Positions 1 to 10,212 of a stretch of DNA of 10,212 bases are shown here, piece after piece. Below the pieces are notes generated by a model. The model saw nothing but the letters and a program-made list of their open reading frames with translations, ran no database searches and was not told where the DNA came from. Every line of letters begins with the position of its first letter. Position 1 is the stretch's first letter. Both the position numbers and the translations under genes were made by a program. Source of the stretch: Gemmatimonadaceae bacterium (GTDB lineage: Bacteria; Gemmatimonadota; Gemmatimonadetes; Gemmatimonadales; Gemmatimonadaceae); assembly GCA_013816695.1 (NCBI GenBank), contig JACDDZ010000048.1, positions 1-10,212 on the forward strand. Direction: 5' to 3'.

Positions 1-1032
1 GCGGTGGCAACGAACAGCGCGACAAGCGCTTTGCACATCGCTTATCTCGCTCTGGGATTGAAGCCAGGCGATTACGTGTGGACTACGCCAGTTACATTCG
101 TGGCGACGTCGAACGCTGCACTCTACTGCGGGGCGAAAATCGACTTTGTGGACATCGATTCGCGCACATACAATCTGAGCGTGGATGCCCTGCTCGAAAA
201 GCTGCTTGTCGCGGAGCGCGACGGTAGGCTGCCGAAGATAGTCACGGCCGTGCACCTCGGCGGCCAATCCTGCGACATGGCAGGAATTCATGCGCTAAGC
301 CAGCGGTTCGGCTTCAAAGTTGTCGAGGACGCATCTCATTCGGTCGGTGGCAAGTATCGCGGCGAACATATCGGCGGCTGCCACTACAGCGACATCTGCA
401 TTTTCAGTTTTCACCCGGTAAAGATCATCACGACGGGCGAAGGCGGGATGGCGCTTACCAACAGCCCCGAGTTGGCGGCTCGCCTGTCCCGGCTTCGCAG
501 CCACGGAATTACCCGTGTTGCGTCGGAAATGACTCATCTCCCGGACGGTCCCTGGTATTATCAACAACTGGAGCTGGGTTTCAACTATCGACTGACTGAA
601 TTCCAGGCGGCTCTCGGACTAAGCCAGCTGTCACGGCTTGATGAGTTCGTCGAGCGTCGGCGGGGGCTCGCCGAGAAATACAACGAGTTGCTCGCTGATT
701 TGTGGGTGACGACGCCATGGGAACATCCTGACTCCCATTCGGCGATGCACCTCTACATAGTGCGCCTGAAACGCGACCGGGCAAAGCTTGGTCAGTCTGA
801 AGTATTCGAGCGACTCCGAACGGCGGGCGTTGGGGTAAATCTCCACTACATCCCCGTTTACCGGCAGCCGCTTTACGAAGCGATGGGATTTGACCGGAGA
901 GATTTTCCCCAGGCCGAGGCGTATTATTCCGAGGCCATGAGCCTTCCACTTTTTCCAGGGCTGACAGACGCCCAGCAGCTCGAAGTGGTTCAGAGAATGA
1001 AGGCGCCCATAGGCCACCAGACGATCTTTTGA
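1..1032 (+). CDS. pseC: PseC-type UDP-4-amino-sugar aminotransferase, 5'-truncated
   Basis: This is a cytoplasmic PLP-dependent aminotransferase of the DegT/DnrJ/EryC1 family, best matching PseC. PseC converts UDP-2-acetamido-2,6-dideoxy-4-keto-arabino-hexose to the 4-amino sugar, using glutamate as amine donor. The reading frame is open from base 1 and a GTG at base 4 lies inside conserved sequence (AVATNSATSALH), so the true start is outside the window and about 40 N-terminal residues are missing. Counting codons from base 1, the PLP-pyridine aspartate is D110 in EDASHSVGG and the Schiff-base lysine is K141 in FSFHPVKIITTGEGG. The later WYYQQLELGFNYRLTEFQAA segment is typical of PseC and its close relatives. 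It ends with TGA 23 bases before the aldo/keto reductase. The family is certain; the substrate is supported by pseG and a neuB-type gene in the same run. A related sugar aminotransferase remains possible. Confidence 0.92.
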   Translation, partial: AVATNSATSALHIAYLALGLKPGDYVWTTPVTFVATSNAALYCGAKIDFVDIDSRTYNLSVDALLEKLLVAERDGRLPKIVTAVHLGGQSCDMAGIHALSQRFGFKVVEDASHSVGGKYRGEHIGGCHYSDICIFSFHPVKIITTGEGGMALTNSPELAARLSRLRSHGITRVASEMTHLPDGPWYYQQLELGFNYRLTEFQAALGLSQLSRLDEFVERRRGLAEKYNELLADLWVTTPWEHPDSHSAMHLYIVRLKRDRAKLGQSEVFERLRTAGVGVNLHYIPVYRQPLYEAMGFDRRDFPQAEAYYSEAMSLPLFPGLTDAQQLEVVQRMKAPIGHQTIF

Positions 1033-1055
1033 CGGAAACTGCGTCAGCGGTATGA

Positions 1056-1937
1056 ATGGCAAGTTCTGATCGGCTTGCAATCGGGACGGCGCAGTTCGGT
1101 TTGGCTTATGGTGTTGCAAATGTGCGCGGACAAGTATCGCGTGACGAAGCTGCCGGGATTCTGGCGTTTGCATCTTCTGCGGGCATTCATACCATTGACA
1201 CCGCTGCAGGATACGGCGAAAGCGAAACACGACTCGGCGATATCGGGGTCAAGGGATGGGAGCTGGTTTCAAAACTTCCCGCCATCCCGCGTGGCTGCCG
1301 CGACATCCAGGCCTGGGTCGAAGAGGTTGCGCGGGAGTCACTAACGCGCCTTCGTGTTGAATGCTTGTACGGTTTTCTGCTGCACCGCCCAAGCGAACTT
1401 CTCGAGGATCGAGGACCCGAGCTTTATTCAGCCATGACCCGTCTCAAGGAGCTGGGAATAGTTCGGGCGATCGGGATTTCCATTTACGATCCGAGTGAGC
1501 TGGACGAAATCATGGAGTCGCATCCAATGGATATTGTGCAGGCTCCGTTCAACTTGCTCGACCGACGCCTCGAGGACACCGGATGGATGCAGCGAATTTC
1601 CGCTAGCGGCGCGGAGCTTCATGTAAGGTCGGTGTTCCTGCAGGGACTTCTCCTGATGAAGAACAGTGAGCGCCCGGCGAAATTTGGCAGATGGGTCGGC
1701 CTTTGGGACCACTATGACAGTTGGCTTGCTGACAGTGGATTAACGGCCCTCGAAGCATGTCTGAGTTTTGCTCTTTCCTTTCCCGAGATTCACAAAGTGA
1801 TCGTAGGGATCGACAGTCTCAGGCAGCTGAAGGAAATCCTGGCCGCGTCGGACCATTCTTATGTTGCACCGCCTGACGGATTAAGAAGCGCTGACACTTC
1901 ATTGATAAATCCGGGCGCCTGGCCGGCGCTCAGCTGA
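1056..1937 (+). CDS. Aldo/keto reductase family protein
   Basis: This 293-residue protein is an aldo/keto reductase, a cytoplasmic NAD(P)H-dependent TIM-barrel oxidoreductase acting on carbonyl groups. It starts with the barrel strand LAIGTAQFGLAYGV. The full catalytic tetrad can be placed: D48 and Y53 in IDTAAGYGESE, K73 in LVSKLP and H110 in LLHRP. The later QAPFNLLDRR (near residue 165) and the C-terminal VIVGIDSLRQL segment match the usual cofactor side of the barrel. The ATG at 1056 places the first barrel strand right at the N-terminus, as is normal for the family; no strong Shine-Dalgarno is visible. Aldo/keto reductases of this subgroup often sit next to SpsF-like genes in surface-polysaccharide loci, but I know of no settled role for them. 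It could reduce a keto-sugar or a keto-acid made by neighbouring enzymes; the substrate is unknown. Confidence 0.9.
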   Translation: MASSDRLAIGTAQFGLAYGVANVRGQVSRDEAAGILAFASSAGIHTIDTAAGYGESETRLGDIGVKGWELVSKLPAIPRGCRDIQAWVEEVARESLTRLRVECLYGFLLHRPSELLEDRGPELYSAMTRLKELGIVRAIGISIYDPSELDEIMESHPMDIVQAPFNLLDRRLEDTGWMQRISASGAELHVRSVFLQGLLLMKNSERPAKFGRWVGLWDHYDSWLADSGLTALEACLSFALSFPEIHKVIVGIDSLRQLKEILAASDHSYVAPPDGLRSADTSLINPGAWPALS

Positions 1938-1956
1938 TACTTTCGGACTATTGAGC

Positions 1957-2667
1957 ATGACGCGAAGGCTCGTGGCTGCAATTGCATGCCGCAACAACGG
2001 CTCCCGGCTTTATGGAAAGCCGCTTCAGAACCTCGATGTTAAACAGAATGTCCGCATTCTCGACAACCTCGTGAACTGCATCCGCACGATTCCGGCGGTG
2101 GATGAGATAGTGCTTGGAATTGCGGAAGGGAGTCATAATGAAATATTCAAGGACGTGGCCGCGGAGCTCGGGCTTCGATATATCGTTGGTGACGGTATCG
2201 ATGTGTTGTCCAGACTAATCAAGTGCGGCCGGCTCGCTGGTGCCACAGACATCTTTCGTGCGACGAGTGAATCACCCTTCCTGTACTTCGAGGCCGCCGA
2301 GGGGATGTGGCGGCGCCATCAGCAGGAAAGTGCAGATGCGACATTCCTTGACGATATCGTAGATGGATGCGGTTTCCAGATTATCTCGTTGAGAGCGCTC
2401 GAGGAGGCACACGCAAAGGGCAACGAGACACACAGGTCGGAGCTCTGTTCGCTGTACATTCGGCAGAATGCCACGGATTTCCGCATCATAACGGAGTATC
2501 CGCCAGAGCGGCTGCGAAGGCCGGAGCTGCGGCTCACCGTTGATACGCCTGAAGATCTGGTGTTGTGCAGGGCCGTCTATGAGAGGTTTGCCGAATTCGC
2601 GCCGCGAATCCCGGTCCTCGAAGTTCTCCCTTTTATTGAATCGTTATCTGCGGCTCCAGCCCATTGA
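1957..2667 (+). CDS. SpsF-like cytidylyltransferase (probable CMP-sugar activation)
   Basis: This 236-residue protein resembles the SpsF / acylneuraminate-cytidylyltransferase-like nucleotidyltransferases. The nucleotide-binding signature is CRNNGSRLYGKPLQNL (residues 11-26), followed by a VGDGIDVLSR segment (77-86) and LRLTVDTPEDL (191-201), which is the conserved SpsF C-terminal motif. The family's usual ITGDCP-like strand reads RATSESP here (101-107), so the glycine-aspartate pair has become serine-glutamate. No other cytidylyltransferase is present, so this is the best candidate for the PseF step, activating the finished nonulosonic acid with CTP; that is an inference from context. ATG at 1957 is chosen; a TTG at 1951 two codons earlier is in frame and possible, and neither has a clear ribosome binding site. 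It ends 38 bases before the class III aminotransferase. It could instead activate a different sugar or sugar acid. Confidence 0.84.
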   Translation: MTRRLVAAIACRNNGSRLYGKPLQNLDVKQNVRILDNLVNCIRTIPAVDEIVLGIAEGSHNEIFKDVAAELGLRYIVGDGIDVLSRLIKCGRLAGATDIFRATSESPFLYFEAAEGMWRRHQQESADATFLDDIVDGCGFQIISLRALEEAHAKGNETHRSELCSLYIRQNATDFRIITEYPPERLRRPELRLTVDTPEDLVLCRAVYERFAEFAPRIPVLEVLPFIESLSAAPAH

Positions 2668-2705
2668 TGCCTTGCCGGTAATAATCATTCATCTGTCGCA
2701 GGGTT

Positions 2706-4055
2706 ATGAACCAAATAAATAACTTCCATAAATCGCAGGAATTTCGCGCCAGGATTCATGACCTGGTGCCGGGTGGATCGCACACGTATTCCAAGGGCGA
2801 CGATCAGTTTCCTTCGCTGTCTCCCGCCGCTATTGACCATGGTCTCGGCGCGAGGGTGTGGGACATTGACGGCAACGAGTACCTGGACTGTTCGATGGGG
2901 CTTACCTCAGTCAGCCTCGGCCATGCGTACAAGCCCGTCTTGGACCGAGTCAAACGCGAACTGGACCGGGGCGTCAATTTCCAGCGGCCATCCGTACTGG
3001 AGCTCGAAATGGCGCAGCGTTTTGTGGCGCTGGTACCGCAGCATGACATGGTCAAGTTCGCAAAGAACGGATCCACTGTGACAACCGCGGCTGTGAAGCT
3101 GGCCCGCGCGGCCACGGGACGGAAGCTTGTCGGTTTCCCCGGCAACCATCCTTTCTACAGCTACGACGACTGGTTTATCGGGTCGACTGTGGTGAACAAG
3201 GGTATTCCTGAAGAGTTCGGGAACCTATCCGTAAAATTCAAGGCGTGCGACATCGAGTCGCTGAAGGCCATTTTCAAGCAGTATCCGAACGAGATTGCGT
3301 GCATCATGACTGAGCCGGAGAAGAGCACCTGCACGGTGGATTGTCCGTGCGGCGCAAACCCCGGTGAGTTCCTCAGGCAGGCAATTGATCTGGCGCATGC
3401 GCATGGCGCGCTCTTCATCATCGATGAGATGGTATCGGGATTCAAGACAGCGCTTCCGGGATCGATAACGAAATACAACCTGCCGGCCGACATGGCGACG
3501 TGGGGGAAGGGAATCGCAAATGGTTTTGCATTCTGCGCGCTGACCGGAACAAAGGAAGTGATGGAGCTGGGCGGAATTCGAAACAAGGGTGCAGAAAAGG
3601 TTTTTCTCATCTCCACCACGCATGGCGCCGAGACGCACGCGATGGCCGCTGCCCTCGCAACTATTGACGTGTTCGAGGCAGGAAATGTCATCGCCACGAA
3701 TCACGCGATGGGCAGGAAAATCATCGCGGAGTGTGAGCGCGCGTTCACCGCTGCCGGCCTTGGCGACTGCATTCAGGTACTTCCTGCCGAATGGCTGCCC
3801 GCTTTCGTTTTCAGGGACGGAAAGGGTCAGCCATCTGCAGGATTCAGGACGCTGTTCATGCAGGAGATGATTCGCCGAGGAATATTGTTCCAGGGAATTT
3901 TCGCTCCGACTCCTTCGCACACTGATCTCGACACCCAACAGTTTGTAAGCGCAGTCACGGAATCGCTTCAAGTGTATCGTCGCGCTCTTTCGGAAGGTTA
4001 CGACAAGTATCTTGTCGGCGAACCCACGAGAGCGGTTTTCCGCAAGACGCTCTGA
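2706..4055 (+). CDS. Class III PLP-dependent aminotransferase, glutamate-1-semialdehyde-aminomutase-like
   Basis: This 449-residue cytoplasmic protein is a fold-type I, class III aminotransferase. The N-terminal LVPGGSHTYSKG (residues 20-31) and the NGSTVTTAAVKLARAATGR segment (121-139, phosphate/PLP side) are characteristic of the glutamate-1-semialdehyde-aminomutase-like branch found in polysaccharide loci. The pyridine-nitrogen aspartate is D240 in IIDEMVSGFK, and the PLP lysine is K268 in TWGKGIANGF. A heme-pathway HemL is unlikely: the gene lies between SpsF-like and nitrilase genes and the sequence departs from HemL around the lysine. An odd point is a cysteine group, C209, C213 and C215, in STCTVDCPCG between the TEPE and D240 motifs. 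The start at ATG 2706 gives a normal N-terminus; only a weak, very close AGGG precedes it. It could aminate a keto or aldehyde group on a sugar or on an acyl precursor; the substrate is unknown. Confidence 0.9.
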   Translation: MNQINNFHKSQEFRARIHDLVPGGSHTYSKGDDQFPSLSPAAIDHGLGARVWDIDGNEYLDCSMGLTSVSLGHAYKPVLDRVKRELDRGVNFQRPSVLELEMAQRFVALVPQHDMVKFAKNGSTVTTAAVKLARAATGRKLVGFPGNHPFYSYDDWFIGSTVVNKGIPEEFGNLSVKFKACDIESLKAIFKQYPNEIACIMTEPEKSTCTVDCPCGANPGEFLRQAIDLAHAHGALFIIDEMVSGFKTALPGSITKYNLPADMATWGKGIANGFAFCALTGTKEVMELGGIRNKGAEKVFLISTTHGAETHAMAAALATIDVFEAGNVIATNHAMGRKIIAECERAFTAAGLGDCIQVLPAEWLPAFVFRDGKGQPSAGFRTLFMQEMIRRGILFQGIFAPTPSHTDLDTQQFVSAVTESLQVYRRALSEGYDKYLVGEPTRAVFRKTL

Positions 4056-4074
4056 CACGCCGGTCTCCGCGCTC

Positions 4075-4866
4075 ATGAGAATTGCGCTGGCTTCGATGGA
4101 TCAGGCCTGGGAAAACAAGGAGCTCAACCTGGAGCGCGTATCGGCTCTGGCGAATAGCGCCGCCGGACTTGGCGCGGAGCTGGTCGTGTTTCCCGAGATG
4201 ACGCTTACGGGATTCACGATGAACACCGGTTACTCTGCAGAAACGGCCGAGAACTCACCAAGTGTGAAGGCTCTGGCGCAGATTGCTGCTGCGGAGAAGA
4301 TCTGGCTTCTTGCCGGTGTTGTGTTTCGCTCGGGTGAGACCGCGACAAATAACCTGGTCGGGTTTGCACCGGACGGGATGCAACGCGTTCTCTATGCGAA
4401 GATCCACCCGTTTTCCTTTGCCGGCGAAGACCGGTTTTTTTCGAGAGGTGAGCATCTGGCGACATTGGCGCTGACCGAGTTCACACTCGGGCTTTCCATA
4501 TGCTATGATCTGCGATTCCCCGAGCTGTTTGCGGCGCTTGCTGACAAGGCTGATGTCCTCATTAACATTGCAAACTGGCCCAGGCGGCGTCTGGACCATT
4601 GGGTGACGCTGCTGCGTGCGCGCGCCATCGAAAACCAGGTTTATGTCGTCGGTGTGAATCGTACTGGCACAGATGGGAACGGCGTAGAGTATGTGAGCAG
4701 CTCGATGGTGATCGATCCCAATGGGGTGGCATTGTCGCCGGTTTCTACCGCCGGCGACATTGACGTCTACGATATGACGCGCCAAGCGCTTGACGAATTC
4801 AGAAAAAGCTTCTCCACAAGACAGGACCGTCTTCCGGACCTATACGGGAAATTCTTGCATGAATAA
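4075..4866 (+). CDS. Nitrilase-superfamily carbon-nitrogen hydrolase
   Basis: This 263-residue protein belongs to the nitrilase (C-N hydrolase) superfamily, which hydrolyses amides or nitriles through a Glu-Lys-Cys triad. All three residues are visible: E41 in VVFPEMTLTGF, K109 in YAKIHPFSFAGED and C143 in SICYDLRFPELF. The downstream NIANWP (about 163-168) and HWVTLLRARAIENQVYVVGVNRTG region is typical of the omega-amidase/Nit2-like branch. The length fits a single catalytic domain with no synthetase or ligase fusion. ATG 4075 gives the canonical MRIALASMDQ first strand; the frame stays open further upstream but that would overlap the aminotransferase gene by 44 bases. The stop overlaps the deacetylase start by eight bases, which argues for joint expression. 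Its substrate may be an amide side chain or an amide by-product in sugar synthesis; the exact activity cannot be read from the sequence. Confidence 0.91.
   Translation: MRIALASMDQAWENKELNLERVSALANSAAGLGAELVVFPEMTLTGFTMNTGYSAETAENSPSVKALAQIAAAEKIWLLAGVVFRSGETATNNLVGFAPDGMQRVLYAKIHPFSFAGEDRFFSRGEHLATLALTEFTLGLSICYDLRFPELFAALADKADVLINIANWPRRRLDHWVTLLRARAIENQVYVVGVNRTGTDGNGVEYVSSSMVIDPNGVALSPVSTAGDIDVYDMTRQALDEFRKSFSTRQDRLPDLYGKFLHE
4859..4866 (+). promoter_or_regulatory. Stop/start overlap ATGAATAA between C-N hydrolase and deacetylase
   Basis: The deacetylase ATG lies inside the last three codons of the hydrolase gene, in a different frame, so the two share eight bases. This is the usual arrangement for translational coupling and supports coordinated amounts of the two enzymes. 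The coupling itself is inferred. Confidence 0.7.
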
Positions 4867-5557
4867 GCAGCTCACTGTTGAAAGTGCTCTCGTAGTGGCG
4901 GCGCACCCCGATGATGAGGCGCTCGGGTGTGGAGGCACGATCGCGAAGCTAGTGGAGCAGCATGCTTCAGTTCATGTAGCGTTCATGGCCGACGGCGTGT
5001 TTTCCCGTTCGGCGCAAAAGGACGAGCATGCGCAGCAGCTGGTGGCGCGCAGGGACGCAGCCAGAAGAGCGTGCGCGCAGCTCGGAGTGAAGTCGGTGTC
5101 GTTCGGAGAGTTTCCAGATAATCGCATGGACTCCATACCGATGCTGGACATAGCGCAGGCCGTCGAGAGTCTCGTTAACAAGTATTCTCCTGAACTGATT
5201 TTGACGCATCACGCTGGGGATCTGAACGTTGACCACCAGCGGCTCTCTGCTGCGGTTGTCACCGCGTGCCGCCCCCAGGCAGGGATGGACGTCAGGACAA
5301 TACTCATGTTCGAGGTGCCATCGAGCACCGAGTGGCATGTGCCCGGCGCCGCTCCTGCATTTGCGCCCAATTGGTATGTTGACATTTCAAAGAATCTCGA
5401 TCGCAAGATTGCCGCACTGAACGAGTATTCCGTGGAGATGAGGGAATGGCCGCATCCACGGTCAGTCCGTGGAGTGACGCACCTTGCGCATTGGCGCGGT
5501 GCGACGGTTGGTGTAGATGCCGCCGAAGCATTCGTTCTCGGCCGACGCATCGATTGA
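4859..5557 (+). CDS. PIG-L/LmbE family N-deacetylase
   Basis: This 232-residue protein is a PIG-L (LmbE-like) zinc-dependent deacetylase, a family that removes N-acetyl groups from GlcNAc-type sugars and related compounds. The hallmark AHPDDEALGCGG begins at residue 15 (H16, D18 and D19 supply metal ligand and catalytic base). The second metal/catalytic motif is HHAGDLNVDHQ at 117-127, where H126 is the likely remaining ligand. No signal peptide or membrane segment is seen, so it acts in the cytoplasm. ATG 4859 is used, with a GGGAA about eight bases upstream and an eight-base overlap with the C-N hydrolase; an upstream in-frame start near 4790 would overlap that gene by 77 bases and adds unlikely sequence. 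The standard pseudaminic pathway needs no deacetylase, so this enzyme probably exposes an amine for a different acylation, an inference from the ATP-grasp and GNAT genes nearby. Confidence 0.92.
   Translation: MNKQLTVESALVVAAHPDDEALGCGGTIAKLVEQHASVHVAFMADGVFSRSAQKDEHAQQLVARRDAARRACAQLGVKSVSFGEFPDNRMDSIPMLDIAQAVESLVNKYSPELILTHHAGDLNVDHQRLSAAVVTACRPQAGMDVRTILMFEVPSSTEWHVPGAAPAFAPNWYVDISKNLDRKIAALNEYSVEMREWPHPRSVRGVTHLAHWRGATVGVDAAEAFVLGRRID
5554..5557 (+). promoter_or_regulatory. TTGA overlap: deacetylase stop and pseG start
   Basis: The TGA stop shares three bases with a TTG that begins the pseG frame. No convincing Shine-Dalgarno precedes it, so re-initiation by the ribosome finishing the deacetylase would be the likely route. 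The start choice rests on frame position and the N-terminal motif. Confidence 0.6.
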
Positions 5558-6621
5558 GAAGCTCCCGGGCGGGGACCGAGACTCGCCCCCTCCTGATTGT
5601 GCGCGCAGACGCGAACGCTGCCATTGGCAGCGGCCACGCAAAACGAAGCGCCGCAGTTGCAGAAGAGTGGCATAGGCGGGATTTGCAATTTGCTCTTGTT
5701 ACGAGCGGTTCCCTGGAGTCCGTGCCCACGGCGATTCGTCGGCGCGCTTCACGCATCGAGACAGGGTTTGCAGCGCATCCCGACCCTGAGGATCTTGACC
5801 GTTTGCTCCGCATGATAGGGGAGAGCCAAACCCCATGTGTTTTGCTTGACGGGTATGGCTTTGATGAGGAGTATCGCCGCGCAATCCGGCAAAGCGGCGC
5901 GACGCTCATCGTTATGGACGACAACGGGTCGCAGGCAAGTCACGCCCACGTCGTCGTCAACAGCAGCCCATCGGCTGATCGTACGGAATACCGTGGGATT
6001 GCGGTAGAATCTTTGGTTGGACCTGCTTTCGCGCCGTTGCGAAGCGAGTTCATGCTGCAGTCGCGAAAAACCGGCAGCGACCTTTCCGAGCCCCCGAGAA
6101 TTCTCGTCACGCTTGGGGGCAGCGACCGGCTTAACCGGACTGCGATGGTCATTGAAGCATTGGAGCTGACCAGCCGCCGGGTGCAAGCACGAGTGGTCAT
6201 CGGCCCCGCGAACACCGGGAAAGGTGAGCTGCTTGAAAAATGTTCGTCCGCTAGTCAACACATCGAGTGTATTGTCGATCCACCGGACATGTCAGCGCTG
6301 ATGGCCTGGTCGGATATTGCTGTGTGCGCTTCGGGAGGAACGCTGCTCGAGATTGCGTTTCTTGGCGTACCCTCACTCTCGCTCGTGCTGGCGGAGAACC
6401 AGCGGAAGATTGGAGAAACGTTCGCAGATTCTGGCGTCACCCGTAATCTCGGTTCCGCAGAGCAGTTGACCGCCCGCGGCATTGCCGACGCACTGACCGA
6501 AATGCTCGAGAACCAGGAGATACGGCGGGCGCAGACAATTGCGGGACAGAGTCTCATAGATGGCTTGGGGACCAGCCGTATTGTGGATCATATTCTCGGT
6601 TTTACAACGGTGAACGATTGA
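5554..6621 (+). CDS. pseG: PseG-type UDP-sugar hydrolase
   Basis: PseG removes UDP from UDP-2,4-diacetamido-2,4,6-trideoxy-beta-L-altropyranose, giving the free sugar for the synthase. This 355-residue protein has the family's GT-B-like layout. The N-terminal LLIVRADANAAIGSGHAKR carries the catalytic histidine H28 in the GxGHxxR motif. The C-terminal nucleotide-binding part has ASGGTLLEIAFLGVPS (S260-G261-G262-T263, E266) followed by LVLAENQRK (E281, N282, Q283). The middle contains LVTLGGSDRLN, also typical. The TTG at 5554 is chosen because it overlaps the deacetylase stop as TTGA and leaves only 12 residues before the first strand; extension to 5446 would run 112 bases into the deacetylase gene. 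No clear Shine-Dalgarno is visible, so translation is probably coupled. Its presence points to an L-altro (pseudaminic) rather than a legionaminic precursor. Confidence 0.92.
   Translation: MRSSRAGTETRPLLIVRADANAAIGSGHAKRSAAVAEEWHRRDLQFALVTSGSLESVPTAIRRRASRIETGFAAHPDPEDLDRLLRMIGESQTPCVLLDGYGFDEEYRRAIRQSGATLIVMDDNGSQASHAHVVVNSSPSADRTEYRGIAVESLVGPAFAPLRSEFMLQSRKTGSDLSEPPRILVTLGGSDRLNRTAMVIEALELTSRRVQARVVIGPANTGKGELLEKCSSASQHIECIVDPPDMSALMAWSDIAVCASGGTLLEIAFLGVPSLSLVLAENQRKIGETFADSGVTRNLGSAEQLTARGIADALTEMLENQEIRRAQTIAGQSLIDGLGTSRIVDHILGFTTVND
6618..6621 (+). promoter_or_regulatory. TTGA overlap: pseG stop and GNAT start
   Basis: The same TTGA arrangement recurs at the pseG/acetyltransferase junction, again with only a weak purine stretch upstream (ACGGTGA). 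An internal ATG at 6687 is the competing start. Confidence 0.5.
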
Positions 6622-7622
6622 CTGTTCAACGTCTTCAGGGCGGGAACGGGAGAAAAGAAGTAGCGAATACCTTAGACGAAACTCTCATGCACCTTTTGCC
6701 CGCGCACGGTTTTGACCGCTATCGGAATTATCCGGCGTCCAGGCCGGATGCCTGGCAGGAATATGCGAGAGCGCGCCTACGTGATTTGGCGGACGATTCG
6801 GAATGGACCTTTCATCTTGCGGGAATTGAGAAAAACGGGTCTCTCCTCGGATGCCGGATTTCTGCATGGGATCTCGAGCATTATGGCTTCAAGCTTGGCT
6901 TCCTTCATGTGCTGGCGCGAGGTGAAGGTTCCGGGGCAAATGCTGCGCAGGAACAAACGCTTCGGGATTGCATGGAGCATTTCCAGAGCGAAGGGGTTGG
7001 AATGGTCGTTACGCGGGTATCCGGTTTCGACTTGTTCTCGATTCACTCGCTGGAAAAACATGGCTTTCGGTATTACGAGACCGAGGTGTCGCCCATTGTC
7101 AAAGTTGGGCCTGCTCACCTTCAGGGGGATCCGGATGTCAGGCTAATGGCTGAAGAAGACATCGAGGCCGTAAAGCGCATTGCGGTTCGTGGCCAGTTTC
7201 CTTCGGGTCATTACCAGCTGGATGGGCAGCTTGATCAGGAACGAGTTGCGCGAATGTACGCGAAATGGGTCGAGAGTGCATGGAAGCGGGGAGAACCAGT
7301 GGCTGTGATTGCACCTGAGGGGACGCCGCTCGGCTATTTCATTTTTCGCTTCTCCCCCGACCTATCGAATGCTCTGGGTTTGCAGTTCGGAAGCCTGAGG
7401 GCTCTTGCGATCGATCCTGACGCGCGAGGGCGCGCACTCGGCCGAAGATTATTTAACGGAACGCTGGCACTACTTGGATATGGCGGCGCGCAGTTTATCG
7501 AGTCGACCTATTCAACCAAGAATTTTGTTTCGGCAGGGCTGCACACTCGAGCACAGTTCATGTCGGCATATGAAGAAGTAACAATGCATTGCTGGCTGAA
7601 TGCGAAGGGAGCGCGGACATGA
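6618..7622 (+). CDS. Two-part GNAT N-acetyltransferase (PseH position)
   Basis: This 334-residue protein ends in a GNAT acyl-CoA N-acyltransferase domain (about 172-330). Motif A is LRALAIDPDARGRALGRRL (260-278), which holds the pyrophosphate loop. The first half (about 65-165) carries SAWDLEHYGFKLG (82-94) and SLEKHGFRYYETEV (144-157). These resemble the N-terminal half of WecD/RffC-like dTDP-fucosamine 4-N-acetyltransferases, but that is a recalled pattern, not an alignment. By its place between pseG and the synthase gene it is the natural candidate for the PseH step, acetylation of the C4 amine from PseC, or for re-acylating an amine freed by the deacetylase. TTG 6618 overlaps the pseG stop as TTGA; a later ATG at 6687 would drop 23 residues and cannot be excluded. 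It is much longer than the roughly 160-180 residue PseH. Confidence 0.86.
   Translation: MTVQRLQGGNGRKEVANTLDETLMHLLPAHGFDRYRNYPASRPDAWQEYARARLRDLADDSEWTFHLAGIEKNGSLLGCRISAWDLEHYGFKLGFLHVLARGEGSGANAAQEQTLRDCMEHFQSEGVGMVVTRVSGFDLFSIHSLEKHGFRYYETEVSPIVKVGPAHLQGDPDVRLMAEEDIEAVKRIAVRGQFPSGHYQLDGQLDQERVARMYAKWVESAWKRGEPVAVIAPEGTPLGYFIFRFSPDLSNALGLQFGSLRALAIDPDARGRALGRRLFNGTLALLGYGGAQFIESTYSTKNFVSAGLHTRAQFMSAYEEVTMHCWLNAKGART
7605..7610 (+). promoter_or_regulatory. Ribosome binding site of the NeuB-type synthase gene
   Basis: AAGGGA lies eight bases before ATG 7619, which overlaps the preceding TGA as ATGA. This decides the start against an in-frame TTG at 7589 that would add ten residues of no recognisable family sequence. 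Confidence 0.75.
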
Positions 7623-8644
7623 TTTCCAGAATCCATCCTATCCCATTTGGAAGAAAATGGATCGGTCCGGGGCTTCCGGTGGTCATCATCGCCGAGATCG
7701 GAATCAATCACGAAGGCGATTTCGAGACGTGTATTCGGCTCGTCGAGGCAGCTGCCCGTTCCGGCGCCGACGCGGTAAAACTAATCACAGTTCGGGCGAG
7801 CGAGAATTACGCGCCAGACACGGAATCGTTTGCAGTTTTCAGCCGTTCAGAGCTGAAGCCCGCGGAGACGGCGGCCGCTTTTGGGAGGGCTCGCGAGCTC
7901 GGGATGGAATGCTTTTCGACCTGCGGCGATTTCGTATCAGCGGAATTTGTTGGAACTTTGGAGCCAGCAGCATGGAAAGTTTCCAGCGGCCTGCTAACTC
8001 ACCTGCCCCTTATTCAGCGGCTCTCGGAAACCGGACTATCGCTGTTGCTGTCCACCGGAATGTCTTCCATGAAAGATGCAGCCAGGGCCGTTGAAATCGC
8101 CCGGAAATCGGGCGCTCGTCACATCGGACTTTTTCAATGCACTTCACTGTATCCTGCTCCGCCGGAACTTCTCAATCTCCGATCCATCAGGTCAATGTTA
8201 TCCGAATTCAACGTGCCCGTGGGTTTGTCTGATCACTCGGATGGTTACCTCGCTCCAGCGATTGCGGTTGCGGCGGGCGCAATGATGATTGAGAAGCATT
8301 TTTCGCTGGATCCGACCCGGCCAGGGTTTGACCATCGCGTCTCGCTCAATCCGACCGAGTTTTCAAGAATGGTCGAAACCGTCCGAACCGCCGAGCAGAT
8401 GCTCGGATCCGAGATAAAGGATGTGCCTGAGGCGGTACGTCAGGTTGCGCGCAGGAACCTTCGTGGACTCGCGGCGGCCCGGGACATTCCCAAGGACAAA
8501 CAAATCGAGGCCTCGGATCTCGGGGTCATGCGAGTGGCTGGTGAAAAAGGACTGCCGCCTGAAGCCTTGTCCACGATTCCCGGCCGTTTAGCCGCGCGCG
8601 ACATCGCGGCTTACGAGCCCATCACCCAGGAAGATATCCAGTGA
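7619..8644 (+). CDS. neuB: NeuB/PseI-type nonulosonic acid synthase with SAF domain
   Basis: This 341-residue protein condenses a six-carbon amino sugar with phosphoenolpyruvate to a nine-carbon nonulosonic acid. The TIM-barrel NeuB domain starts with IIAEIGINHEG (E26, N30, H31) and contains ADAVKLIT (K54), FQCTSLYPAP (C174), GLSDHSDG and MIEKHFSLD. From about residue 280 there is an antifreeze-like SAF domain, RRNLRGLAAARDIPKDK, which normally reaches into the partner active site. The substrate-end motif reads PGFDHRVSLNP, closer to the PGPDH form of Neu/Leg synthases than to the GGxDSAFSLEP form I associate with PseI. The product is therefore not settled even though pseC and pseG are present. 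ATG 7619 overlaps the GNAT stop as ATGA and has AAGGGA eight bases upstream. The family assignment is very secure; the isomer made is not. Confidence 0.95.
   Translation: MISRIHPIPFGRKWIGPGLPVVIIAEIGINHEGDFETCIRLVEAAARSGADAVKLITVRASENYAPDTESFAVFSRSELKPAETAAAFGRARELGMECFSTCGDFVSAEFVGTLEPAAWKVSSGLLTHLPLIQRLSETGLSLLLSTGMSSMKDAARAVEIARKSGARHIGLFQCTSLYPAPPELLNLRSIRSMLSEFNVPVGLSDHSDGYLAPAIAVAAGAMMIEKHFSLDPTRPGFDHRVSLNPTEFSRMVETVRTAEQMLGSEIKDVPEAVRQVARRNLRGLAAARDIPKDKQIEASDLGVMRVAGEKGLPPEALSTIPGRLAARDIAAYEPITQEDIQ
8628..8633 (+). promoter_or_regulatory. Ribosome binding site of the ATP-grasp gene
   Basis: AGGAAG lies seven bases before GTG 8641, which overlaps the synthase stop as GTGA. It is one of the clearest Shine-Dalgarno matches in the window and supports the non-ATG start. 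Confidence 0.75.
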
Positions 8645-9705
8645 CAACTGGTCCGACTGCCCGCGTGCTCATGACATGTGTGGGAGGTACGCTGGGGCCC
8701 GACCTGCTCGTGCACTTGCGGGCAGAGCGCGATCTAGTGGATTGGCTTGTAGGCGTGGATGCGTGTGAGACCGCCGCGGGCAGACCATATGTTGATTCCT
8801 TTTTTCAGGTGCCTTGGGCAGATGCACCCGACTACGTGGAAAACATCGCGCGCATCGTCAAGCAGCAAAGGGTTAACGTCGTTCTTCCCGGATCGGACCA
8901 GGAAGCGTTCGTCCTCTCACGCGCCCGCGAAGAACTGCTAGCGGCGGGAGCAGCGTTGATGACGAGTCCGCCAGCCGTGCTCGAGCTGATCAAGGACAAG
9001 GAAGCGACTTATCGCACCGCAGAGTCGGCCGGTATTGTCGTCCCCCAAAGGAGAATTGTTACTTCCTTCGCGGAGCTCAAATTCGCGCTTACGGAGTTTG
9101 GATATCCTGAGCAGTCCGTGGTGTGCAAGCCGACAGCCGGACGCGGAGGCCGCGGGCTGCGAATTCTCGTAGGCACAGGTGATCCCTTGCCGGCCTGGAT
9201 GGGCGGTGGCGCACGAGAGTCACGTTACGAAGTAAGGCCATCCGATTCAGATATGGATGCATGGTTCGCGGATGGATCACTCATGGTGATGCCAGCGCTC
9301 AGGGCGCCCGCATACGATGTCGATGTTTTCGCGGTTTCCGGCAAGGCGAAGCATGCTTTCGTGCGCGAGCGCGTTAACCCGGCGGGGATTCCGTTCGCCG
9401 GCAATATCCTCAGGCCCGAGGTGGAGATCAGGGAGTATTGCATTTCGCTCGCGGGAGCATTCGGACTGGATGGATTGCACGACATCGATTTGATGACCGA
9501 CAGGGAAGGCCGCCCCGCACTGCTCGAAGTAAATCCCCGGATGAGCGGGAGCGCAGTCGCCTCTCACGCGGCTGGTTTTCCGGTAGTTGCGGCGGCAGTC
9601 GCGGCAGGCGTCGGGCTGGATTATGAAATCGCACCAGTTACAGAACGCATCGAAGTGACTCTCATTCCCCGTGCGACCATTACTCGCGCAATGCGAGGGA
9701 AATAG
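8641..9705 (+). CDS. ATP-grasp carboxylate-amine ligase-like protein
   Basis: This 354-residue protein has an N-terminal Rossmann-like pre-ATP-grasp domain (RVLMTCVGGTLGPDLL, 8-23; VLPGSDQEA, 81-89) followed by an ATP-grasp domain like that of CarB or PylC. The ATP-binding lysine is K163 in VVCKPTAGRGGRGL, whose glycine-rich loop covers 167-172. The magnesium-binding end is DIDLMTDREGRPALLEVNPRMSGS, cited here by position 281-304, with E296 and N298 as metal ligands. Enzymes of this fold activate a carboxylate as an acyl phosphate and pass it to an amine. Together with the deacetylase it suggests amide-linked decoration of the sugar, but the substrates are unknown. GTG 8641 overlaps the synthase stop as GTGA and has a good AGGAAG at 8628-8633. 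All the expected ATP-grasp residues appear present, so it is probably active. Confidence 0.92.
   Translation: MTTGPTARVLMTCVGGTLGPDLLVHLRAERDLVDWLVGVDACETAAGRPYVDSFFQVPWADAPDYVENIARIVKQQRVNVVLPGSDQEAFVLSRAREELLAAGAALMTSPPAVLELIKDKEATYRTAESAGIVVPQRRIVTSFAELKFALTEFGYPEQSVVCKPTAGRGGRGLRILVGTGDPLPAWMGGGARESRYEVRPSDSDMDAWFADGSLMVMPALRAPAYDVDVFAVSGKAKHAFVRERVNPAGIPFAGNILRPEVEIREYCISLAGAFGLDGLHDIDLMTDREGRPALLEVNPRMSGSAVASHAAGFPVVAAAVAAGVGLDYEIAPVTERIEVTLIPRATITRAMRGK
9695..9700 (+). promoter_or_regulatory. Ribosome binding site of the LeuA-like gene
   Basis: GAGGGA sits inside the end of the ATP-grasp gene, six bases before TTG 9707. It decides the TTG start for the LeuA-like enzyme, whose conserved DTTLRDGEQ motif begins only seven residues later. 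Confidence 0.78.
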
Positions 9706-9706
9706 C

Positions 9707-10212
9707 TTGAAGCTGATCGAGATCTACGATACGACACTGCGCGACGGTGAGCAGGCGCCCGGGGCGGCGATGCACCCGTCACAAAAGGTGGAAATTGCAC
9801 TGGAACTTCAGAGTCTTGGCGTTGATACCATCGAGGCCGGGTTCCCTGCGTCGTCGGAAAAAGACGCCGCATCAGTGGCGGAGATTTCGCGGCTCTGTCG
9901 GACCTGCCGCATCGCGGCTTTCGGGCGCACCACCACGGAAGACGTGGAGGCTGCGATTGTAGGTGTGCGCGATGCGGAGCATCCGCGGATCACGCTGGTC
10001 ATGCCGGCGAGTGACCTCCACATGTACAGCAAACTCCGAATTAATGATATGGAGGCGCTGGAGCTGCTTCCGCGTATGGTGCGAATGGCGCGAAACAAGT
10101 GCGCAGAGGTTGAAGTAATCGCTGAAGATTCCACTCGTTCACGTCCGGAATTCATTACGAGGCTTTTCCAAACAGCCGTCACCGCCGGAGCGAGATGGTT
10201 TACGCTTGCGGA
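9707..10212 (+). CDS. LeuA-like (isopropylmalate/homocitrate synthase family) enzyme, 3'-truncated
   Basis: The frame from TTG 9707 stays open to the window end and gives 168 residues of a DRE-TIM metallolyase. This family condenses acetyl-CoA or another acyl-CoA with a 2-keto acid (2-isopropylmalate, citramalate, homocitrate) or cleaves the reverse. The signature YDTTLRDGEQAPG holds the metal aspartate D8, the catalytic arginine R12 and Q16. VDTIEAGFPASSEKD (39-53), MPASDLHMYSKL (99-110) and the EVEVIAEDSTRS segment (about 135-146) follow the LeuA order; the window ends just before the expected LADT and HxH parts. TTG is chosen because GAGGGA lies six bases upstream and the usual N-terminus begins there; no ATG fits. 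It starts one base after the ATP-grasp stop, so it belongs to the same unit. A housekeeping leucine gene is possible, but the coupling favours a pathway-specific role. The 2-keto acid used is unknown. Confidence 0.92.
   Translation, partial: MKLIEIYDTTLRDGEQAPGAAMHPSQKVEIALELQSLGVDTIEAGFPASSEKDAASVAEISRLCRTCRIAAFGRTTTEDVEAAIVGVRDAEHPRITLVMPASDLHMYSKLRINDMEALELLPRMVRMARNKCAEVEVIAEDSTRSRPEFITRLFQTAVTAGARWFTLA

Follow-up and report, generated by a model that had tools for sequence, protein, structure and literature searches.

The stretch analysed here, referred to as the window, comprises positions 1 to 10,212 (10,212 nucleotides) of contig JACDDZ010000048.1 from a Gemmatimonadaceae bacterium. 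Open reading frames and family profiles define eleven genes, all on the plus strand, from a PseC-type aminotransferase through to a condensing enzyme related to 2-isopropylmalate synthase LeuA (Table 1). The window starts inside the PseC gene and ends inside the LeuA-like gene, and both reading frames are partial. A full-length LeuA-like protein of 386 residues, P0160, is identical to the window gene across the 168 visible residues. The last two genes, for an ATP-grasp ligase and the LeuA-like enzyme, and their possible role in the decoration of a nonulosonic acid are the main subject of this report. The families named in a preliminary description of this DNA, as adjoining or overlapping genes, are present on the plus strand and about where it had placed them. 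The aldo/keto reductase and the class-III aminotransferase went unmentioned there, and the PseC and SpsF-like genes lie upstream of position 4075, at which the system it described begins.

From PseG to LeuA-like the genes are closely spaced. The GNAT, NeuB and ATP-grasp genes overlap the preceding gene by four bases (6618/6621, 7619/7622 and 8641/8644, respectively). The LeuA-like gene starts at 9707, one base past the ATP-grasp stop codon, which ends at 9705. To judge from the sequence, this spacing resembles that of a translationally coupled operon. Neither promoter-like sites (6 versus a mean of 3.7 in shuffled sequences, standard deviation 2.0) nor terminator-like sites (9 versus 10.6, standard deviation 3.3) were in clear excess over chance in the window.

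Table 1. Genes of the window with their positions, strand and the profile matches on which the assignments are based.
Gene product	Position	Strand	Evidence and remarks
PseC-type aminotransferase	1..1032	+	5' end missing at window edge; TIGR03588 459.5 bits, cut-off 423.5
Aldo/keto reductase	1056..1937	+	PF00248 2.6e-29
SpsF-like nucleotidyltransferase, candidate CMP-sugar synthetase	1951..2667	+	PF02348 23.5 bits, barely above cut-off 22.6
Class-III (GSA-type) aminotransferase	2706..4055	+	NF004856 527 bits, cut-off 486
Carbon-nitrogen hydrolase	4075..4866	+	PF00795 1.7e-41
PIG-L/LmbE deacetylase	4859..5557	+	PF02585 1.6e-29; HPDDE motif in translation
PseG-type UDP-sugar hydrolase	5560..6621	+	TIGR03590 164.2 bits, cut-off 153.55; start codon uncertain
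GNAT acyltransferase, candidate for the PseH role	6618..7622	+	PF00583 1.2e-6 (weak), residues 216-310
NeuB-family nonulosonic acid synthase with SAF domain	7619..8644	+	PF03102 3.8e-63; PF08666 2.7e-6
ATP-grasp ligase	8641..9705	+	ATPgrasp_Ter 7.7e-16; PylC-like_N 1.6e-9
LeuA-like condensing enzyme	9707..10212	+	HMGL-like PF00682 4.8e-38; first 168 of 386 residues visible

Pairing of the ATP-grasp and LeuA-like genes was assessed by the longest contig recorded for each protein cluster, an identical size in both lists being an indirect sign of a shared contig. Among the matches listed, 58 ATP-grasp relatives score at least 320 bits and 62 are weaker. With the full-length LeuA-like protein of locus L001 (described below) as query, 59 listed relatives with known contig size score at least 397 bits and 59 score below. 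Exact agreement in longest-contig size with a LeuA-like relative was found for 31 of the 58 ATP-grasp relatives, in all 31 cases within the LeuA-like top group, and for 1 of the 62 weaker matches. None of the 58 agrees with any of the 59 listed LeuA matches below 397 bits. The single pair among the weaker matches (P0086/P0219) may be genuine, P0219 having three of the five LeuA-like site changes described below. Furthermore, the pairwise distances within the two families correlate over 32 pairs, the 31 and that of the window (r = 0.576; 2000 permutations gave no value as high, the maximum being 0.321). The two genes directly follow NeuB both in the window and in L001. These comparisons give good support to a functional pair, both members of which the preliminary description had placed in one route. 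The pair is the best-supported unit of the locus and is narrower than the scheme proposed there.

A structural model of the ATP-grasp protein is confident (mean predicted local distance difference test score, pLDDT, 92.9). The folds closest to it are those of 2pn1 (titled carbamoylphosphate synthase large subunit), biotin carboxylases, L-amino acid ligases and GAR synthetase. An E-x-N-P-R stretch is invariant in 32 ATP-grasp sequences. Fold and stretch are those expected for carboxylate-amine ligases, and the model fits the ligase-type enzyme that had been proposed, although the fold does not name its substrate.

The LeuA-like protein carries the TTLRDGEQ motif found in LeuA, and in the PDB P0160 comes closest to an isopropylmalate synthase (3rmj, 289 bits). 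However, P0160 scores below the cut-offs of all NCBIfam LeuA models (best 440.1/532 bits), of the homocitrate synthase models NifV (300.6/462.9) and LysS (245.2/413.55) and of the citramalate synthase model TIGR00977 (187/450). The regulatory domain PF08502 is listed for 0 of 58 LeuA-like rows. A midpoint-rooted tree was built from 89 rows, namely 57 LeuA-like proteins, 30 of 60 other matches, P0179 and P0180. A branch with support 100/99 separates the 57 LeuA-like rows from the rest. P0179 and P0180, candidate members by score, are placed outside this group by the tree and neither has a contig match.

Residues were counted in 58 LeuA-like rows, including P0141, which was too short for the tree, and in 62 other matches. 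Arg12, Asp13, His201, His203 and Asn237 are present in every aligned row having a residue there, the last three in 120 of 120 rows. We take these residues to be the catalytic Arg-Asp pair, the His-x-His motif and the Asn of the active site and its metal ligands. Five other sites differ between the groups. Site 72 is Phe in 57/57 LeuA-like rows (one gap) and Leu in 58/62 others, site 138 is Ile in 58/58 and Ser in 57/62, site 166 is Thr in 58/58 and Asn in 58/62, and site 168 is Ala in 58/58 and Pro in 59/62. At site 96, His is found in 59/62 others and in 0/57 LeuA-like rows (one gap), which have Thr (34), Ala (12), Ser (9), Asn (1) or Ile (1) instead. In the structures of Mycobacterium tuberculosis LeuA and a Leptospira citramalate synthase, these five sites reportedly contact the keto-acid side chain. 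The condensing enzyme of the preliminary description has thus kept its metal ligands, but the residues typical of isopropylmalate synthase at the presumed pocket are not kept in the 58 rows. Two of the five substitutions bring in bulkier residues, a point in favour of a small keto acid. Citramalate is our best guess for the product on this sequence evidence. A homocitrate synthase proper was rejected, since the scores are below the cut-offs and P0160 has Glu136 where the homocitrate synthase 6ktq appears to have Arg. An ordinary, full-length isopropylmalate synthase of 519 residues was also encountered on a viral-labelled IMG/VR contig (L033:2865-4424); it has Leu, His, Ser, Asn and Pro at sites 72, 96, 138, 166 and 168.

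Locus L001 lies on a contig of a metagenome-assembled genome (MAG) titled Polaromonas sp. It contains NeuB (43% identical), ATP-grasp (55%) and LeuA-like (60%) genes in the order of the window, and a LIC12162-family transferase follows the LeuA-like gene (TIGR04331, 465.1 bits, cut-off 225). The PseC match of this MAG reaches only 167.8 bits, below the cut-off. PIG-L and PseG gave no match there at E <= 0.001, in a genome of unstated completeness. In this MAG the proposed co-occurrence holds for NeuB, which precedes the pair as in the window, and is not seen for PIG-L and PseG.

In a MAG titled Planctomycetota (G002), cluster C462 has matches to NeuB, PIG-L, PseG, ATP-grasp (41%), SpsF, the aminotransferase and the reductase. 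A citramalate synthase gene (TIGR00977, 616.1/450 bits) there overlaps a second, more distant ATP-grasp gene (32%) by four bases. Phe72 and Thr96 of P0160 are common to this citramalate synthase. Upstream of these two genes (L025:7964-12441) are a gene judged WbqC-like by eye and one resembling N-acetyl sugar amidotransferases, the latter below the cut-off (TIGR03573, 53.5/203.2 bits). The first 14 kb of cluster C312 contain PseC above the cut-off, PseG and two PIG-L matches and no ATP-grasp match. Matches to PIG-L and ATP-grasp co-occur in two of the three G002 clusters, C462 and C147.

Each of six genome samples gave a match in the centre genome alone. The samples overlap, and in all except that of the genus scoring was confined to a few top candidates per genome. 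For the ATP-grasp gene this holds for the class (1/274, E <= 1e-40), the order (1/399, E <= 1e-60), the phylum (1/398, E <= 1e-70) and Planctomycetota (1/392, E <= 1e-35), and for the LeuA-like gene for the family (1/399, E <= 1e-118) and the genus (1/87, E <= 1e-110). The pair therefore appears to be an accessory that few loci carry. Scarcity of this kind had been named beforehand as a point against the proposed pathway, and it is found in part. A LeuA-like protein named for Rhodoferax saidenbachensis (P0122), 96% identical to that of L001, shows that there are carriers outside these samples. Plasmid records similar to the ATP-grasp protein numbered 58, none of which reached 60% identity (26-31% among the 30 matches listed). 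In searches of viral-labelled contigs, one query found a single distant locus, L011, and the other found six loci whose available flanks gave no ATP-grasp match (E <= 1e-3). L011:7135-13131 has matches to SpsF, class-III aminotransferase, ATP-grasp (25%), PIG-L (46%) and a PseC-like gene in a row.

Among the core sugar genes, PseC and PseG exceed their curated cut-offs. NeuB is below both of its own (NeuB_NnaB 249.7/399.65, PseI 226/340.25 bits), and the family match accordingly does not specify its nonulosonic acid. The nearest PDB sequences to the window NeuB are SpsE (1vli) and PseI (8h2c). From the gene families, the core would be a pseudaminic-like pathway. The carbon-nitrogen hydrolase and GNAT genes had no match in the seven comparison loci (tblastn; E <= 1e-4 for the hydrolase), and a single-sequence structure model of the GNAT protein was unusable (pLDDT 34.7).

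The genes at 1056-4055 (aldo/keto reductase, SpsF-like and class-III aminotransferase) recur jointly in the G002 clusters C462 and C147, each time with a second NeuB-like match that is 27-28% identical. The reductase matches there are 28% and the SpsF-like matches 44-47% identical. The class-III aminotransferase also has matches in loci L002, L026 and L011. These three genes may constitute a module of their own, conceivably one that supplies an additional amine.

The PIG-L translation contains HPDDE, presumably the zinc-site motif of PIG-L deacetylases. PDB relatives of this protein include deacetylases and a 4-oxalmesaconate hydratase. The best 120 of 7741 matches comprise the window's own protein and 119 others that are 64-70% identical, some of them proteins named for Sulfuricella and Sulfurirhabdus. 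Within these 120, only the window's own protein agrees in longest-contig size with any of the 58 ATP-grasp relatives. No agreement exists with the 59 LeuA-like relatives. The preliminary description had placed PIG-L, ATP-grasp and LeuA-like in one route. A fixed unit of the three is not supported by the contig comparison or by the Polaromonas MAG, in which PIG-L has no match, and was rejected. More distant PIG-L genes, beyond the best 120, may still adjoin the pair.

Flagella and surface glycans carry nonulosonic acids, whose N-acyl groups are variable. To our knowledge, few enzymes making non-acetyl N-acyl groups of these sugars have been described. The reading that we tentatively prefer, at slightly less than an even chance, is that the product of the operon is a nonulosonic acid of the pseudaminic or a closely related type, to which the LeuA-like/ATP-grasp module links a citramalate-type acid as an amide. 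The substrate that the LeuA-like enzyme condenses with acetyl-CoA would be a different α-keto acid from ketoisovalerate, most probably a small molecule like pyruvate, and the product a 2-hydroxy-2-alkyl succinate of the citramalate type. The ATP-grasp enzyme would convert one carboxylate into an acyl phosphate and then form the amide with an amine on the nonulosonic acid or on a precursor of it. This amine could be provided by PIG-L, by an unacetylated PseC product or by the class-III aminotransferase. If citramalyl takes the place of one acetyl in Pse5Ac7Ac, the free sugar has a computed mass of 422.154 Da. The computed mass increments over N-acetyl are +88.016 Da for citramalyl, +74.000 for malyl, +102.032 for ethylmalyl and +116.047 for isopropylmalyl. 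The gene content, the pairing, the NeuB neighbour in two loci, the ligase-type fold, the kept ligands and the changed sites are the observations behind this reading; from them we infer the keto acid, the acid product, the acceptor and the order of steps. The earlier interpretation is supported in part, in that the pair next to NeuB and the ligase fold remain and PIG-L as part of a fixed unit is dropped.

Several findings weigh against this reading. In the contig comparison, 27 of the 58 ATP-grasp relatives are unmatched, 16 of them on contigs of at least 5 kb (including 360, 229 and 206 kb), and some of them may operate without this LeuA-like enzyme. Equal contig size is an indirect sign, and related sequences correlate in distance anyway. 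The window's own pair is among these 16, its two proteins being listed under different longest contigs, which means that the method undercounts true pairs. In G002 the citramalate synthase adjoins the distant ATP-grasp gene, whereas the closer one, on the same contig, has no LeuA-type neighbour; the citramalate synthase could be the isoleucine-pathway gene of that genome. Cluster C147 has ATP-grasp and PIG-L matches and no LeuA-like match. Carboxylases and GAR synthetase match the ATP-grasp fold about equally well. Many listed LeuA matches outside the LeuA-like group likewise lack PF08502. Site 140 is Ala in 3 of the 58 LeuA-like rows, the aligned Glu being kept in 61 of the 62 others, and these copies may be inactive or different. 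P0160 scores higher on NifV than on TIGR00977, Ala168 is also found in 6ktq, and sites 136, 138, 166 and 168 of the G002 citramalate synthase differ from P0160. These last three points leave more than one keto acid in play.

The same acid and ligase might serve another acceptor, namely a different amino sugar within the same glycan or an amine made by the class-III aminotransferase rather than one freed by PIG-L. We consider this unlikely, but it fits the Polaromonas MAG, in which the NeuB, ATP-grasp and LeuA-like genes occur with no PIG-L or PseG match, and for the PIG-L relatives, which among the best 120 lie on other contigs. It would also agree with an O-polysaccharide that combines an 8-amino nonulosonic acid with a 2-hydroxyglutaryl amide on a trideoxy-glucose, as described in the accessible text of a review of such structures (PMC3210612). 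On the other hand, NeuB directly adjoins the pair in both loci read (window and L001), PIG-L is present in both G002 clusters with an ATP-grasp match, and the MAG without PIG-L has no stated completeness.

That the ATP-grasp enzyme adds an amino acid or a small peptide-like group, a role that has been proposed in flagellin glycans, with the LeuA-like product being used elsewhere or further converted, is in our view improbable. The modelled fold does resemble L-amino acid ligases, and ATP-grasp genes occur in the flagellin loci of Shewanella (sfm, PMC3765264) and Clostridioides difficile type B (PMC5207246), as far as the consulted sections of these papers tell. Pairing and correlated divergence of the two genes speak against it, as does the fact that no LeuB, LeuC or LeuD was recognised by eye in the listed open reading frames of L001 and L025, where no dedicated search was made. 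An ordinary leucine-pathway gene, present here by chance, is scarcely credible. The L001 LeuA-like protein is 45-53% identical to listed matches outside its group, and the closest PDB sequence points the same way. However, PF08502 is unlisted in the group, every LeuA model scores below its cut-off, four aligned sites have fixed changes and the fifth has lost its His, whereas the ordinary synthase of L033 keeps the usual residues at all five. The separate tree group and the pairing with ATP-grasp add to this, and the leucine-gene explanation was set aside.

If the preferred reading of citramalate-type amide linkage is correct, a two-gene module builds and attaches a hydroxy-dicarboxylic acid, which would explain one class of modification and add a charged group to the sugar. 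The pair would then be a genome marker for this decoration. It would also mean that a C-C bond-forming enzyme of primary metabolism was taken over for decorating glycans, a case parallel to that of the ilvB-like gene in Shewanella sfm. A further step, which we regard as possible and rather doubt, is that the LeuA-like proteins are a discrete family, derived from a leucine-pathway synthase whose keto-acid pocket was rebuilt, and dedicated to supplying a citramalate-type acid for amide linkage, with N-(2-alkylmalyl) nonulosonic acids as the result. No such sugar was found in the literature searched, which covered few subscription papers. The same search found no description of this enzyme set, in line with the preliminary description, which knew of no such route. 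The dedicated LeuA-like enzyme is the part for which no precedent was found in the portions of the literature consulted; product type and use of an ATP-grasp enzyme have precedents.

Among enzymes, LeuA is homologous and has the TTLRDGEQ motif and the metal ligands in common with the LeuA-like protein, which differs by lacking the regulatory domain, by the changes at the presumed pocket sites and by its curated scores. Citramalate synthase CimA (TIGR00977) adjoins an ATP-grasp gene in G002 and has Phe72 and Thr96 in common with P0160, but P0160 is far below its cut-off and sites 138, 166 and 168 differ.

Among glycans, malyl and 2-hydroxyglutaryl amides on amino sugars occur in O-polysaccharides (PMC3210612). 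These are on amino sugars other than the nonulosonic acid, which bears 3-hydroxybutyryl, and the accessible text mentions neither citramalyl groups nor biosynthesis. Leg5GluNMe7Ac, a flagellin sugar of Clostridium botulinum, is a nonulosonic acid that bears an N-acyl group of the amino-acid type, not acetyl (PMC13317340). It differs from the sugar expected here in belonging to the legionaminic series and in involving the methyltransferase PtmH, and the sections consulted do not mention ATP-grasp or LeuA-like enzymes. The C. difficile type B flagellin locus makes a sulfonated peptidylamido-glycan and, like the window, has an ATP-grasp gene of the carboxylate-amine ligase family, resembling carbamoyl-phosphate synthetase (PMC5207246). 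Unlike in the window, a nonulosonic acid pathway and a LeuA-like gene are not mentioned in the available part of that paper. A further study, in its accessible portion, merely names an ATP-grasp gene among phase-variable genes (PMC6321876).

A closer parallel is the sfmABCDE operon of Shewanella oneidensis, in which flagellin is modified with a nonulosonic acid carrying an extra moiety of 236-264 Da; the chemistry of the 236 Da group is unsolved in that study, going by its accessible sections (PMC3765264). According to the same sections, sfm differs from the window in having no LeuA-like gene, in its methyltransferase and reductase and in the ATP-grasp_4 domain of its ligase. As in the window, a NeuB-domain gene and an ATP-grasp gene lie within one operon, and SfmB, a thiamine pyrophosphate enzyme named ilvB, again places an enzyme resembling those of the branched-chain pathways beside an ATP-grasp protein.

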